From Pseudomonas putida (GTDB lineage: Bacteria > Pseudomonadota > Gammaproteobacteria > Pseudomonadales > Pseudomonadaceae), in NCBI RefSeq assembly GCF_001636055.1, contig NZ_CP011789.1:1488001-1552000 (forward strand): a stretch of 64,000 bases of DNA, read 5' to 3'. Position 1 is the stretch's first letter; every line of letters starts with the position of its first letter. A model generated the notes under the pieces. That model saw nothing but the letters and a program-made list of their open reading frames with translations. It was not told where the DNA came from and ran no database searches. Positions 32,165 through 35,380 of the stretch are shown piece by piece. Made by a program: the position numbers and the translations under genes.

Positions 32165-33094
32165 ATGACCCGTGTAGCAATCATCCAGGCCGCTTCCGTT
32201 CCTTATGACGCGATGGCCAGTGTCGAGAAGGCCGCCGGCATCCTGCGGCGGGTGGCGGAGCAGGGCGCACAACTTGCGGTGTTCCCCGAGGCGTTCATTG
32301 GCGGTTATCCCAAGGGCGCGGCGTTCGGCAGCGTGGTGGGCAATCGCAGTGCTGCCGGGCGCGCGCTGTACCAACGCTACGTCGAGGGTGCGGTGGCCCT
32401 CGACGGCCCGGAGCTTGCGGCGTTTGCCGAAAGCGTCGAGCAGACCGGCGTGACTGCCGTGGTCGGCATCATCGAGCGTCATGGCCGGACCCTGTATTGC
32501 ACCGCTGTCACTCTGGCGCCGGGCCGTGGCATTGCCGGTTATCACCGCAAGCTCATGCCGACCGGGCAGGAGCGCCTGATCTGGGGCTTCGGCGATGGCT
32601 CGACCATTGAGCCGGTGCAGACCGACTTCGGTGTGCTCGGCAGCGTGATCTGCTGGGAGAACTACATGCCGGCGCTACGCCAGGCCATGTATGCACAAGG
32701 GGTGCAACTGTACTGCGCACCGACTGCCGACGATCGACCGTCGTGGGCCAGTTCCATGGTGCATGTGGCGCTGGAGGGCCGAGTGTTCGTGCTCTCTGCC
32801 TGCCAGGCGATTCGCCTGGGCGAGTATCCGCAGCAGCACCGCGAGGCGTTCGGGCTGGACTTCGCCGACGACGACTACGTGATGCGCGGAGGGAGCATGA
32901 TCGTCAGCCCGCTGGGTGAGGTGCTGGCGGGGCCGGTGTTCGATTGCGAGACCGAACTGTACGCCGATCTGGACATGAGCCAGTTGAGCCAGGGCAACCT
33001 CGACTTCGATGTGGTGGGCCATTATGCGCGGCCGGATGTGTTCGAGCTGAAGGTCAATACCGCGCCGTTGCGGGCGGTGAGTTTCGACGGCTGA
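32165..33094 (+). CDS. Nitrilase family carbon-nitrogen hydrolase
   Basis: A 309-residue branch-1 nitrilase. The catalytic triad is Glu42 (VFPEAFIGGYP), Lys129 (GYHRKLMPT) and Cys163 (VICWENYMP). The spacing and CWENYMP context match true nitrilases acting on aliphatic or arylaceto-nitriles rather than amidases. AGGAG lies five bases before ATG 32165. It forms an operon with the MHS transporter and is presumably controlled by the divergent LysR protein. Product: carboxylic acid and ammonia in the cytoplasm. The actual substrate is not evident. Confidence 0.9.
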   Translation: MTRVAIIQAASVPYDAMASVEKAAGILRRVAEQGAQLAVFPEAFIGGYPKGAAFGSVVGNRSAAGRALYQRYVEGAVALDGPELAAFAESVEQTGVTAVVGIIERHGRTLYCTAVTLAPGRGIAGYHRKLMPTGQERLIWGFGDGSTIEPVQTDFGVLGSVICWENYMPALRQAMYAQGVQLYCAPTADDRPSWASSMVHVALEGRVFVLSACQAIRLGEYPQQHREAFGLDFADDDYVMRGGSMIVSPLGEVLAGPVFDCETELYADLDMSQLSQGNLDFDVVGHYARPDVFELKVNTAPLRAVSFDG

Positions 33095-33112
33095 GATCGC
33101 CGGCGCCGCTTT

Positions 33113-33212
33113 GCGGCCCAATCGCGGGACAAGCCCGCTCCCACAGATACGTGCGCTGATCCAGTGTCAGCGCACGTATCTGTGGGAGCGGGCTTGCCCC
33201 GCGATTGGCCGC
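33113..33212. repeat. Inverted pair of REP elements
   Basis: A 46-base left arm (GCGGCCCAATCGCGGG start) and a nearly perfect complementary right arm ending GGCCGC surround a nine-base loop at 33159-33167. Each arm carries the putida REP core AAGCCCGCTCCCACAG. It lies 20 bases after the nitrilase stop and probably ends that transcript. The remaining gap to 33412 shows no gene. Confidence 0.85.
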
Positions 33213-33412
33213 GATTGTATCGCCCTGTATCTCATCCCTGATCCTGCGTACTTGCATACAAATCCCTCCCTCTCCGGATACGCCCCCGATACACGCTGAC
33301 GTTCAAATGGCTCCACCCGAACGAACGGGGCCAGGCGCCCGGTTCATCGGCTCTCTCGCCCTAGGGGCAATGAACCCAGCGGAACGACCGCACTGACATC
33401 CGGAGAAATGCC

Positions 33413-33907
33413 ATGTCCCATACCCCGATTTCCACCAAGGCTCGCATCGGCCTGTTCGCCATCGCCCTGGCAGGCGGTATCAACGTCACCAGTTCCGCTT
33501 TCGCTGTTGAAGCACTGCCGCAGGGCTACCAGCTCGCGGCCAACGAGAAGGCCCCGGAAGGCAAGTGCGGGGAAGGCAAGTGTGGCGCCCAGGGCAAGGC
33601 CACCCAGGCCGAAGGCAAGTGCGGTGGCCAGGCTAAAGTCACTGGAGCCGAGGGCAAGTGTGGTGAAGGCAAGTGCGGCGATGCCTCCTTCGCCCGCACC
33701 GACACCGACCACGATGGCCGCGTTTCGCGTGCCGAGCTGCTGGCCGTGGCGCCGAAGGCCAACGCCGAATTCGATGCGATCGATGCCAACCACGATGGCT
33801 ACCTGTCCGAGGCGGAGACGTATCAGTTCCGCAAGCATCAGTTCGACGCCAACGGCAAGCCGTTCCCATCCGACCTGTACAGCCGCCTGAGCCAGGCCAA
33901 GCAGTAA
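33413..33907 (+). CDS. Secreted EF-hand protein with five EGKCG motifs (HvfA/bufferin-like)
   Basis: A 164-residue protein. Signal peptide at 1-31 ends in SSAFA. Residues 49-89 contain five EGKCG motifs (49-53, 54-58, 67-71, 80-84, 85-89). Two canonical EF-hand loops follow: DTDHDGRVSRAE (97-108) and DANHDGYLSEAE (124-135). EGKCG repeats are the modified motif of HvfA and bufferin peptides, metal-binding RiPPs processed by MNIO (DUF692) enzymes with a DUF2063 partner. Neither partner gene is in this window. The fusion to a calcium-binding module is unusual. GGAG lies seven bases before ATG 33413. Periplasmic metal binding, perhaps copper, is an inference. Confidence 0.82.
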   Translation: MSHTPISTKARIGLFAIALAGGINVTSSAFAVEALPQGYQLAANEKAPEGKCGEGKCGAQGKATQAEGKCGGQAKVTGAEGKCGEGKCGDASFARTDTDHDGRVSRAELLAVAPKANAEFDAIDANHDGYLSEAETYQFRKHQFDANGKPFPSDLYSRLSQAKQ

Positions 33908-33985
33908 CGGCCATCGCGCCCTTCCCGCACCCTTGGTCGGGGAGGGCCGTGCGCAACGTCCTGATCGGCAAGAAGGAGATGCACC

Positions 33986-34408
33986 GTGATTACCCCTCTG
34001 ACAACCACGCTCTACACCGCCCGTACTCACACCAGCGGCGGCCGCGACGGCCGCGGTCGCTCCAGTGATGGTGCGCTGGACCTGCCGCTGAGCCCGCCCG
34101 GCTCCGGACGTCCAGGCACCAACCCCGAGCAATTGTTTGCCATCGGCTGGTCGGCCTGCTTCATCGGCGCATTGCGTCGTGCGGGGCAGAAGTTCGACAT
34201 CCGCCTGCCCGAGGGCGTGGCGGTGGAGGCTGATGTGGCGCTGGGCAATACCGCCGATGGCGGCTTTGCCCTGGCCGCTCAGTTGACGGTGCACTTGCCC
34301 GGGCTTGCCCAGGAGGACAAGCAGAAGATGGTGGCCGAGGCGCACCAGATCTGCCCGTACTCCAAGGCGACGCGGGGCAACATCGAGGTGGGGTTCGTGA
34401 TTGTGTGA
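33986..34408 (+). CDS. Ohr/OsmC family organic hydroperoxide reductase
   Basis: A 140-residue Ohr-type protein with the two redox cysteines Cys58 (GWSACF) and Cys123 (QICPYS), and the NPEQLFAIGW segment of Ohr. It reduces organic hydroperoxides with lipoyl proteins in the cytoplasm. Start is GTG 33986 with AAGGAG eight bases upstream. It follows the EGKCG protein by 78 bases on the same strand and may share its transcript. An OhrR regulator is not adjacent. C-terminal VGFVIV is typical of the subfamily. Confidence 0.9.
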   Translation: MITPLTTTLYTARTHTSGGRDGRGRSSDGALDLPLSPPGSGRPGTNPEQLFAIGWSACFIGALRRAGQKFDIRLPEGVAVEADVALGNTADGGFALAAQLTVHLPGLAQEDKQKMVAEAHQICPYSKATRGNIEVGFVIV

Positions 34409-34423
34409 GGTGGTCGGAGCCCG

Positions 34424-35380
34424 TCAGGTGCGTACCACTGCCGGCACCATCCGCACGTAGATCAGTTCGCTCACCAGCTCTACCAGTGTCTGGGTAATCA
34501 CCGCCGCTGCCGCCAGCACCCGCAAGTCTTCCGGCAAGGCCAGCGCCAGCGGCAGTACCACCAGCGAATTGCGGGTCGCGGCGCTGAACGTCACCGCTCG
34601 TGCTTCGCGCGCCTGCAGTCGGAACAGCCGCGCCGAGAGCAGCCCCAGCAGCGGTGCCAGCAGCGCGAACCCGACATACACCGGAATCACCGGCAACAGG
34701 CGCTGGAAGTCGCCCAGCACCACGGCGATCTGCGAGCCGATCACGGCAATCAGCACCAGGGCCATGGCCGGTACCGGCATCCACGCCCAGGCGTCGTTCC
34801 AGCGAGCGATGGCCTGCGAGCGGCGCGCGCCGGCGCTGGTGAGTACGGCCAGCAGCATCGGCAGCGCAATCAGCAGCACGAAGGCTTCCACGAACGGCGC
34901 GATGGAAAGTGCCACCGGGTTGTGCGTGCCGAGCATCAGGGCCAGGTACAGCGGCAGCAGCGCCAGTTGCACCAGCAACAGCACTGGCGTGGCGGCGAGG
35001 ATCAGGCGCGAGTCGCCTTTGCCGATGTGGGTGAACACCACCACATAGTCGATGCACGGCGTGAGCAGCACCAACAGTGCACCGATCAGGATCGCCGGAT
35101 GCTCGACCAGGCCGCGCGTGGCCGCCCACACCAGCATCGGTGCCAGCACGAAGTTGGCAAGCAACAGCGCGCCCATGAAGCGGCGGTTGCCCAGCCCCTG
35201 ACGCAGGTCGAGAAAGGGGATCTGCAGGAACATCGCGTACATCAGCACGGCAATCGCCGGGGTCACCAGCGCTTGCAGGTGGCTGGCGGTGTCGGGGGTG
35301 AGCAGGCCTGCGGCGATGGCCAGAACCACGGCGGCGAAGTAGAGGGCGATCTGCTGGGTTTCAAGTTGCTCTCGGGTCAC
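34424..35380 (-). CDS. Bile acid:sodium symporter/arsenite-type (BASS/ACR3-like) transporter
   Basis: A 318-residue membrane protein with about ten spans. AVLMYAMFLQIPF, GALLLANFVLAPMLVWA, VLLTPCIDYVVVFTH and VTFSAATRNSLVVLPLALALP are the characteristic segments of the arsenic-resistance-protein/BASS group. The CIDYV and AATRNSLV motifs recall ACR3 relatives, but no ars regulator or arsenate reductase is adjacent, so the substrate may be an organic anion. Start ATG 35380. It converges with the Ohr gene and lies 87 bases after the MTHFR-like gene on the same strand. Confidence 0.82.
   Translation of the reverse strand: MTREQLETQQIALYFAAVVLAIAAGLLTPDTASHLQALVTPAIAVLMYAMFLQIPFLDLRQGLGNRRFMGALLLANFVLAPMLVWAATRGLVEHPAILIGALLVLLTPCIDYVVVFTHIGKGDSRLILAATPVLLLVQLALLPLYLALMLGTHNPVALSIAPFVEAFVLLIALPMLLAVLTSAGARRSQAIARWNDAWAWMPVPAMALVLIAVIGSQIAVVLGDFQRLLPVIPVYVGFALLAPLLGLLSARLFRLQAREARAVTFSAATRNSLVVLPLALALPEDLRVLAAAAVITQTLVELVSELIYVRMVPAVVRT

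Follow-up and report, generated by a model that had tools for sequence, protein, structure and literature searches.

An EGKCG/EF-Hand Precursor of Pseudomonas putida and Its Probable Modification by Unlinked, Apparently Co-Regulated HvfBC Enzymes

The window, that is, the whole stretch of 64,000 nucleotides analysed here, holds a gene for a protein in which EGKCG repeats are fused to two EF hands. As judged from the sequences, this gene probably encodes a precursor of the EfhP/oxazolin type, the cysteines of which would be modified to 5-thiooxazoles by unlinked, apparently co-regulated HvfBC enzymes. The architecture is already known; it is the split arrangement, with the enzymes about 2 million bases away, that is instructive. 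The architecture, the gene inventory, the operators, the orthology of the regulator, the co-occurrence of precursor and enzyme, and the lack of a precursor in the enzyme operon are all shown by the sequences. The features are collected in Table 1.

Table 1. Features of the window and of the distant enzyme locus (positions are those of the window unless marked as contig positions).
Feature	Position	Strand	Basis or remark
EfhP-type precursor ORF	33413..33907	+	164 aa; signal peptide, EGKCG region, two EF hands
Likely Sec signal peptide, residues 1-31 (...SSAFA|VE)	33413..33505	+	read by eye
Linker VEALPQGYQLAANEKAP, residues 32-48	33506..33556	+	conserved; QGYQ in 118 of 120 listed homologues
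Five EGKCG motifs, residues 49-89	33557..33679	+	sequence, NF050137 match
EF-hand loop 1 DTDHDGRVSRAE, residues 97-108	33701..33736	+	Pfam match, sequence
EF-hand loop 2 DANHDGYLSEAE, residues 124-135	33782..33817	+	Pfam match, sequence
Operator TGTATCGCCCTGTATC, BfmR-type candidate	33216..33231	+	181 bp before start codon of the window gene
Second half-site pair GATACGCCCCCGATACA	33277..33293	+	sequence
Ohr-family peroxiredoxin gene	33986..34408	+	78 bp downstream; NCBIfam TIGR03561, 155.2 bits against 88.85
hvfB (MNIO, DUF692)	contig 3492393-3493175		outside the window (1488001-1552000); sole genome match at E <= 0.001
BfmR orthologue	contig 3488174-3488908		91% identity to a P. aeruginosa protein called BfmR by its source

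Architecture of the Window Protein

An earlier, sequence-only reading had described five EGKCG motifs between a signal peptide and two EF hands, and this description is borne out by the 164-aa open reading frame, with the signal peptide recognized by eye and the other parts matched by Pfam and by NCBIfam NF050137. The score of the NF050137 model ('KCGExKCG_twice') is 44.1 bits (E 1.2e-11), with the cut-off at 19.5; therefore, the repeats are not due to chance. They are arranged as two EGKCGEGKCG pairs and one single motif, and every cysteine of the protein lies within them. Pfam EF-hand models score above their cut-offs (EF-hand_5, 38.1 bits against 25.9), and both loops are of the DxDxDG type, canonical by sequence, from which Ca2+ binding is predicted. 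HvfC/HvfB may recognize the linker VEALPQGYQLAANEKAP. With NF050188, the HvfA equivalog model, the score stays far below the cut-off (35.1 bits against 95), and the DUF2282 domain, the mark of bufferin 1, had no Pfam match on the protein. No match to the protein was obtained among plasmid records.

The 5' neighbour of the fusion gene is a carbon-nitrogen hydrolase (nitrilase-type) gene, and the Ohr-family gene on its 3' side is a possible co-transcribed partner. Scans of 33080-34450 for sigma-70 promoters and terminators found nothing. An inverted repeat with 71-nt arms, 79% complementary and separated by 7 nt, lies at 33089-33237 between the nitrilase-type and fusion genes; this palindrome overlaps the operator and has been left out of the evidence.

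Candidate Modification Enzymes at a Distant Locus

The sequence-only reading had also stated that the window is devoid of DUF692 and DUF2063 genes, and rightly so, as the only DUF692 match at E <= 0.001 and the only DUF2063 match above cut-off lie outside it. A genome without any MNIO, which that reading had allowed for, is not the case: a search of the whole genome (G000, one contig of 5,808,624 bases) found one HvfB and one HvfC. The DUF692 (MNIO) match is single, and the DUF2063 gene adjoins it; a second DUF2063 match is weak (E 0.94). With the NCBIfam models, HvfB scores 416 bits against 360, HvfC 251 against 142 and HvfX 148 against 80, all in one cluster. The distance between the window gene and the MNIO gene is 1,970,462 bp (1.97 Mb).

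Both hvfB and hvfC are of full length, though no precursor gene stands alongside. The operon retains an operator and a leader but no precursor gene, and no precursor ORF was found before hvfB. Within the 330 bp that precede hvfB (operator and leader), positions 44-169 align at 70-74% to the leaders of four out of ten relatives; shorter stretches align in five more, and none in L091. The gap between leader and hvfB is about 600 bp in the relative L086 against about 170 in G000, a spacing that would fit the loss of a resident precursor gene. Elsewhere in G000, the model searches found no other KCG-domain protein and no DUF2282 protein above cut-off (best E 0.89). Therefore, the window protein is the only substrate of a known type found for this MNIO, by searches that would miss small precursors or those of an unknown type.

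A DUF4174 gene lies upstream of hvfB, and such a gene has been reported near efhP homologues in P. putida strains and P. entomophila (PMC4053335). The stretch from the kinase gene (BfmS-like) to hvfC encodes HvfX and a membrane protein of ferric-reductase-like type (Pfam Ferric_reduct; L002, 5406-6542).

Co-Occurrence and Gene Arrangement in the Genus

Of 6940 candidates, 3755 proteins passed E <= 0.001 in a homologue search with the window protein. Many of the named ones among 120 listed homologues carry the source name 'HvfA family oxazolone/thioamide-modified RiPP metallophore'. The 120 listed proteins, the window's included, contain 3 to 8 EGKCG motifs and, in 119 of them, two EF loops (for QGYQ, see Table 1); in all but one, the total of cysteines equals that of EGKCG motifs.

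Among 398 sampled Pseudomonas genomes, matches at E <= 0.001 were found in 179, many of the listed ones being EF-hand only. The same architecture, which the sequence-only reading had proposed to look for in other Pseudomonas, was recovered as a near-full-length match in at least 82 genomes, a lower bound, with the EGKCG motifs read in part of the 82. MNIO is present in 330 of the 398 genomes: in 82/82 of those with a near-full-length match (80/80 located together with it; G028 and G346 taken from the MNIO table) against 248/316 of the others (Fisher p 2.8e-8, uncorrected for relatedness, and the 316 may include divergent fusions). G056, listed without MNIO, has a weak match only (E 4.8e-4).

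For the 80 located fusions, MNIO lies within 5 kb in 51 cases (45 precursor first, 6 MNIO first). The remaining 29, termed split here, have no MNIO within 5 kb; 13 are unlinked on the same contig and 16 are on different contigs, which could include assembly breaks. In G034, G033, G198, G213, G098 and G310, MNIO precedes the fusion by 1.1-2.7 kb on the same strand. Extra copies of the fusion were also seen, two in tandem in G204 (L146, 2590-4638) and three in G088, and P. sichuanensis is listed with two contigs, one bearing a near-full-length match and the other an N-terminal-only one.

The closest arrangement to that of G000 is found in three sister genomes, G364, G371 and G025, in each of which the fusion is found by itself and a separate EGKCG peptide without EF hands is encoded in the enzyme operon (97, 167 and 104 aa as called). 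These EF-less peptides also contain QGYQ. The ohr neighbour follows the fusion in two of the three (L132, L134) and is unmatched in G371 (L133). For the 17 other split genomes, no ORF of at least 45 aa with two KCG motifs was found in the fetched stretch around MNIO.

The Shared Operator and Its Candidate Regulator

Operators of the TGTATC-N4-TGTATC type precede both loci of G000, that before hvfB being TGTATCGCACTGTATC. The pattern TGTATCGCNCTGTATC was derived from these two sites themselves, so the exact pair arises by construction and it is the rarity of others that counts: besides the two exact sites (window gene and hvfB), G000 has one site with one mismatch and six with two, and the reversed pattern, as control, matches nowhere with two mismatches or fewer. 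TGTATC-N4-TGTATC itself has three exact sites in the 5.8 Mb against one for the reversed control. They precede the window gene, hvfB and a 444-aa FmdA-like gene. In 10 of the 17 other split genomes, the gene immediately before hvfB is an orthologue of this third one (85-94% identical).

Read on the other strand, as GATACA-N4-GATACA, the operator fits the published BfmR motif, TACAA-N3-GATACA (PMC8025907), spacing included. Both G000 sites differ from it at one base, the fifth of TACAA, and an operator of the BfmR type, as reported for efhP, is found before the window gene with that one base differing. In P. aeruginosa, 174 enriched regions are reported for BfmR; no gene is activated more strongly by it than efhP (11,268-fold), the promoter of which is BfmR-bound (PMC8025907). 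Other regulators (copper systems such as DsbRS) were considered and nothing fitted, while the published BfmR ChIP-seq motif matched.

The BfmR orthologue of G000 is encoded within 5 kb of hvfBC. It is followed by the kinase, the ferric-reductase-like gene and HvfX, and hvfC starts 2.8 kb past the regulator gene. The bfmR promoter has a degenerate operator (TGTATTGCAGTGTATC), in which one base of a half-site deviates.

Together, G000 and 20 other split genomes have 71 sites, and the control gives 3. A site with no more than one mismatch precedes the fusion gene in 14/16 and 26/26 linked genomes and in 19/20 split ones, with 0.0 expected per class from shuffles; these counts cover 42 (16 + 26) of the 51 linked genomes and 20 of the 28 split ones besides G000. 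The stand-alone fusion of L150 has no operator within 450 bp (1/20). Directly before hvfB (450 bp), a site is present in 6/20 split genomes when one mismatch is allowed and in 9/20 when two are. An exact site before either hvfB (6) or the same-strand gene directly upstream (9 fmdA-like, 3 EF-less peptide) is present in 18/20, a count that holds if hvfB and the directly upstream gene are co-transcribed; in L126 and L130 (2/20), no exact site was found at hvfB or at the gene just upstream.

Several split genomes have an OmpR-family regulator and kinase near hvfC, divergent from a DUF2790 gene and with the motif in between. Such a BfmR-like pair, with the operator between it and DUF2790, was observed in L186, L193, L195, L197, L201 and L205. 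Next in L193 are genes for a CGSSTC peptide and for a protein of the DsbD/thioredoxin type, a set that suggests a thiol-redox arm of the regulon. In G383 and G301 (L188 and L191), the BfmR-like regulator lies away from hvfBC and two operators stand 68 bp apart in the divergent promoter; G383 has two BfmR-like copies, 97% and 90% identical to the query. In other Pseudomonas, the operator also precedes the gene of a secreted-looking alpha/beta hydrolase, as in L187, L190, L192, L194, L196, L200, L202 and L203 (Pfam-tested for L187), and this gene is likely a further member of the regulon.

Lineages of Precursor and Enzyme

The MNIO tree places G000, G364, G371 and G025 with lineage B (98/96), and their grouping with ten lineage-A rows was rejected (p-AU 4.7e-5). 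In the precursor tree, the same four split genomes fall with the ten lineage-A rows (90/86), with a bootstrap that had not settled, and their grouping with lineage B was not rejected (p-AU 0.19). The trees took in 14 of 26 B loci. The identities run the same way: the fusion of G000 is 76-85% identical to the ten lineage-A rows and 56-63% to B, and its MNIO shares 79-83% identity with B and 67-73% with A. Enzyme and precursor in G000 thus seem to belong to different lineages, so that co-evolution would not guarantee the specificity of the enzyme for its substrate. A single joint history of precursor and MNIO has the MNIO tree against it, while the precursor tree alone does not decide. The lineage-B relatives carry the fusion at the enzyme locus.

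Proposed Pathway and Alternatives

In the pathway that we propose, a BfmR-family response regulator would switch on both loci through the TGTATC-N4-TGTATC operators. HvfB (MNIO) and HvfC (DUF2063) would then convert the EGKCG cysteines to 5-thiooxazoles in the cytoplasm, and the modified protein would be exported by Sec with loss of the signal peptide. The modified cysteines are expected to bind copper, and the EF-hand pair, by binding periplasmic Ca2+, may couple metal buffering to calcium. The link to MNIO substrates of the HvfA and bufferin type, which the sequence-only reading had drawn, has gained support from the KCG model, the database names of the relatives, the co-occurrence of MNIO and the shared operators.

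The same reading had left room for an unmodified protein that merely uses the motif, and this now looks less likely, given that the genome has full-length hvfB and hvfC behind an operator of the same kind. Stated in full, the window protein would be a metal-binding or Ca2+-sensing protein whose free EGKCG thiols bind Fe or Cu, with HvfBC acting elsewhere or being leftovers. The study of EfhP as a Ca2+ sensor, made in E. coli (PMC9132961), and the proposal that its EGKCG cysteines are possible Fe sensors (PMC11559002) lend themselves to it, as does an MNIO that lies 1.97 Mb away and groups with another lineage. Nevertheless, MNIO is present in 82/82 genomes with a near-full-length match (at least 82), the operator is common to both loci, and both enzyme genes have stayed full length though no precursor gene adjoins them; we consider an unmodified protein unlikely. 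It is still less probable, and indeed very improbable, that HvfBC of G000 serves an unrecognised precursor without EGKCG motifs and that the shared operator reflects a common stress regulon only. BfmR does have many targets (174 enriched regions in P. aeruginosa, PMC8025907), and the model searches used would pass over small or unknown precursors, but the enzyme locus holds an EGKCG peptide in the three closest split genomes and the fusion in the B-lineage relatives. Moreover, part of the leader of hvfB in G000 aligns to the leaders of four out of ten relatives, with shorter stretches in five more, yet no precursor ORF was found there.

The function could also differ from copper buffering. The main role may be calcium signalling, as for EfhP, with the modified segment directed against oxidants such as hypochlorite; this is compatible with modification by HvfBC, and we hold it to be rather doubtful, with a greater chance than the two alternatives above. 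A P. aeruginosa iModulon with a DUF692 RiPP cluster responds to NaOCl, PA4106/PA4107 not being named in the available part of the account (PMC9023270). An ohr gene comes after the fusion in G000 and two sister genomes, and a DsbD/thioredoxin-type gene is in the regulon of other species. On the other hand, copper is chelated by bufferins (PMC12452194), and 1-2 Cu atoms were bound to an EGKCG product, though within a complex mixture (PMC13097082).

Beyond the window, the proposed pathway may be part of a wider one in Pseudomonas, in which an EfhP-type precursor and the MNIO with its partner are encoded at unlinked loci, apparently derived from two different ancestral operons in the window's clade, and are tied by the BfmR operator, with a product, EfhP included, that would be a thiooxazole copper/calcium protein. 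The chances for and against this generalization appear evenly balanced. The window gene joins three literatures, those of BfmRS signalling, of the EfhP calcium sensor and of the MNIO-made copper-binding RiPPs. It is also an example in which a shared operator, in place of gene neighbourhood, points to a candidate enzyme for an orphan precursor, one that neighbourhood-based RiPP mining would miss. No title or abstract opening among the open-licence papers listed in the literature searches makes a connection by BfmR operators between efhP and MNIO genes at separate loci.

Comparison with Known Systems

The sequence-only reading had considered the architecture to be new; this part does not stand, as the fusion was published in 2025 and EfhP has the same reported features. 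Antoine et al. described the EGKCG and two-EF-hand fusion (Buf_EGKCG|EF-hand chimaera) as a second type of EGKCG precursor, predicted its EGKCG part to be unstructured, and cited EfhP for a possible Ca2+ role (PMC12452194). The chimaeras have the same domain order, an N-terminal signal or transmembrane segment, a short EGKCG domain without 17-residue repeats and two EF hands, and from the available part of that account no architectural difference from the window protein is seen. The window protein has the N-terminal segment (by eye), the short EGKCG region and the two C-terminal EF hands, and lacks adjacent genes for MNIO and the DUF2063 partner. A trans arrangement with a shared operator was not found in the available part of the account of the chimaeras (PMC12452194).

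For the oxazolin HvfA of Haemophilus and the fontiphorin FonA/FonBC, enzymes of the HvfB/HvfC type are now reported to install 5-thiooxazoles (PMC13097082, PMC13419390). FonBC acted in vitro on a peptide that had two EGKCG repeats and left one with a single repeat unmodified (PMC13097082). The oxazolin (HvfA/HvfBC) and fontiphorin systems resemble that of the window in the EGKCG motifs and the enzyme types; compared with oxazolin HvfA, the window protein matches NF050137 and has HvfB and HvfC in its genome, with NF050188 below cut-off. They differ in that precursor and enzymes are encoded together, and EF hands go unmentioned in the available parts of these accounts.

The nearest relative is EfhP (PA4107) of P. 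aeruginosa, reported with four EGKCG repeats (PMC11559002) and two EF hands; its gene is predicted to share an operon with those of DUF692 and DUF2063 proteins (PMC4053335). EfhP homologues without such neighbours are on record, as in P. fluorescens Pf0-1 (PMC4053335). Work on EfhP as a Ca2+ sensor used protein that E. coli produced from a clone of the efhP region (PMC9132961). If the proposed pathway is correct, biochemistry on such efhP-only protein may describe an immature form. By its reported features, EfhP is like the window protein in the signal peptide, the EGKCG repeats, the two EF hands, the DUF692/DUF2063 partners and the BfmR operator. It differs in that the three genes are predicted to form one operon in P. 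aeruginosa, whereas the partners of the window protein are encoded 1.97 Mb away.
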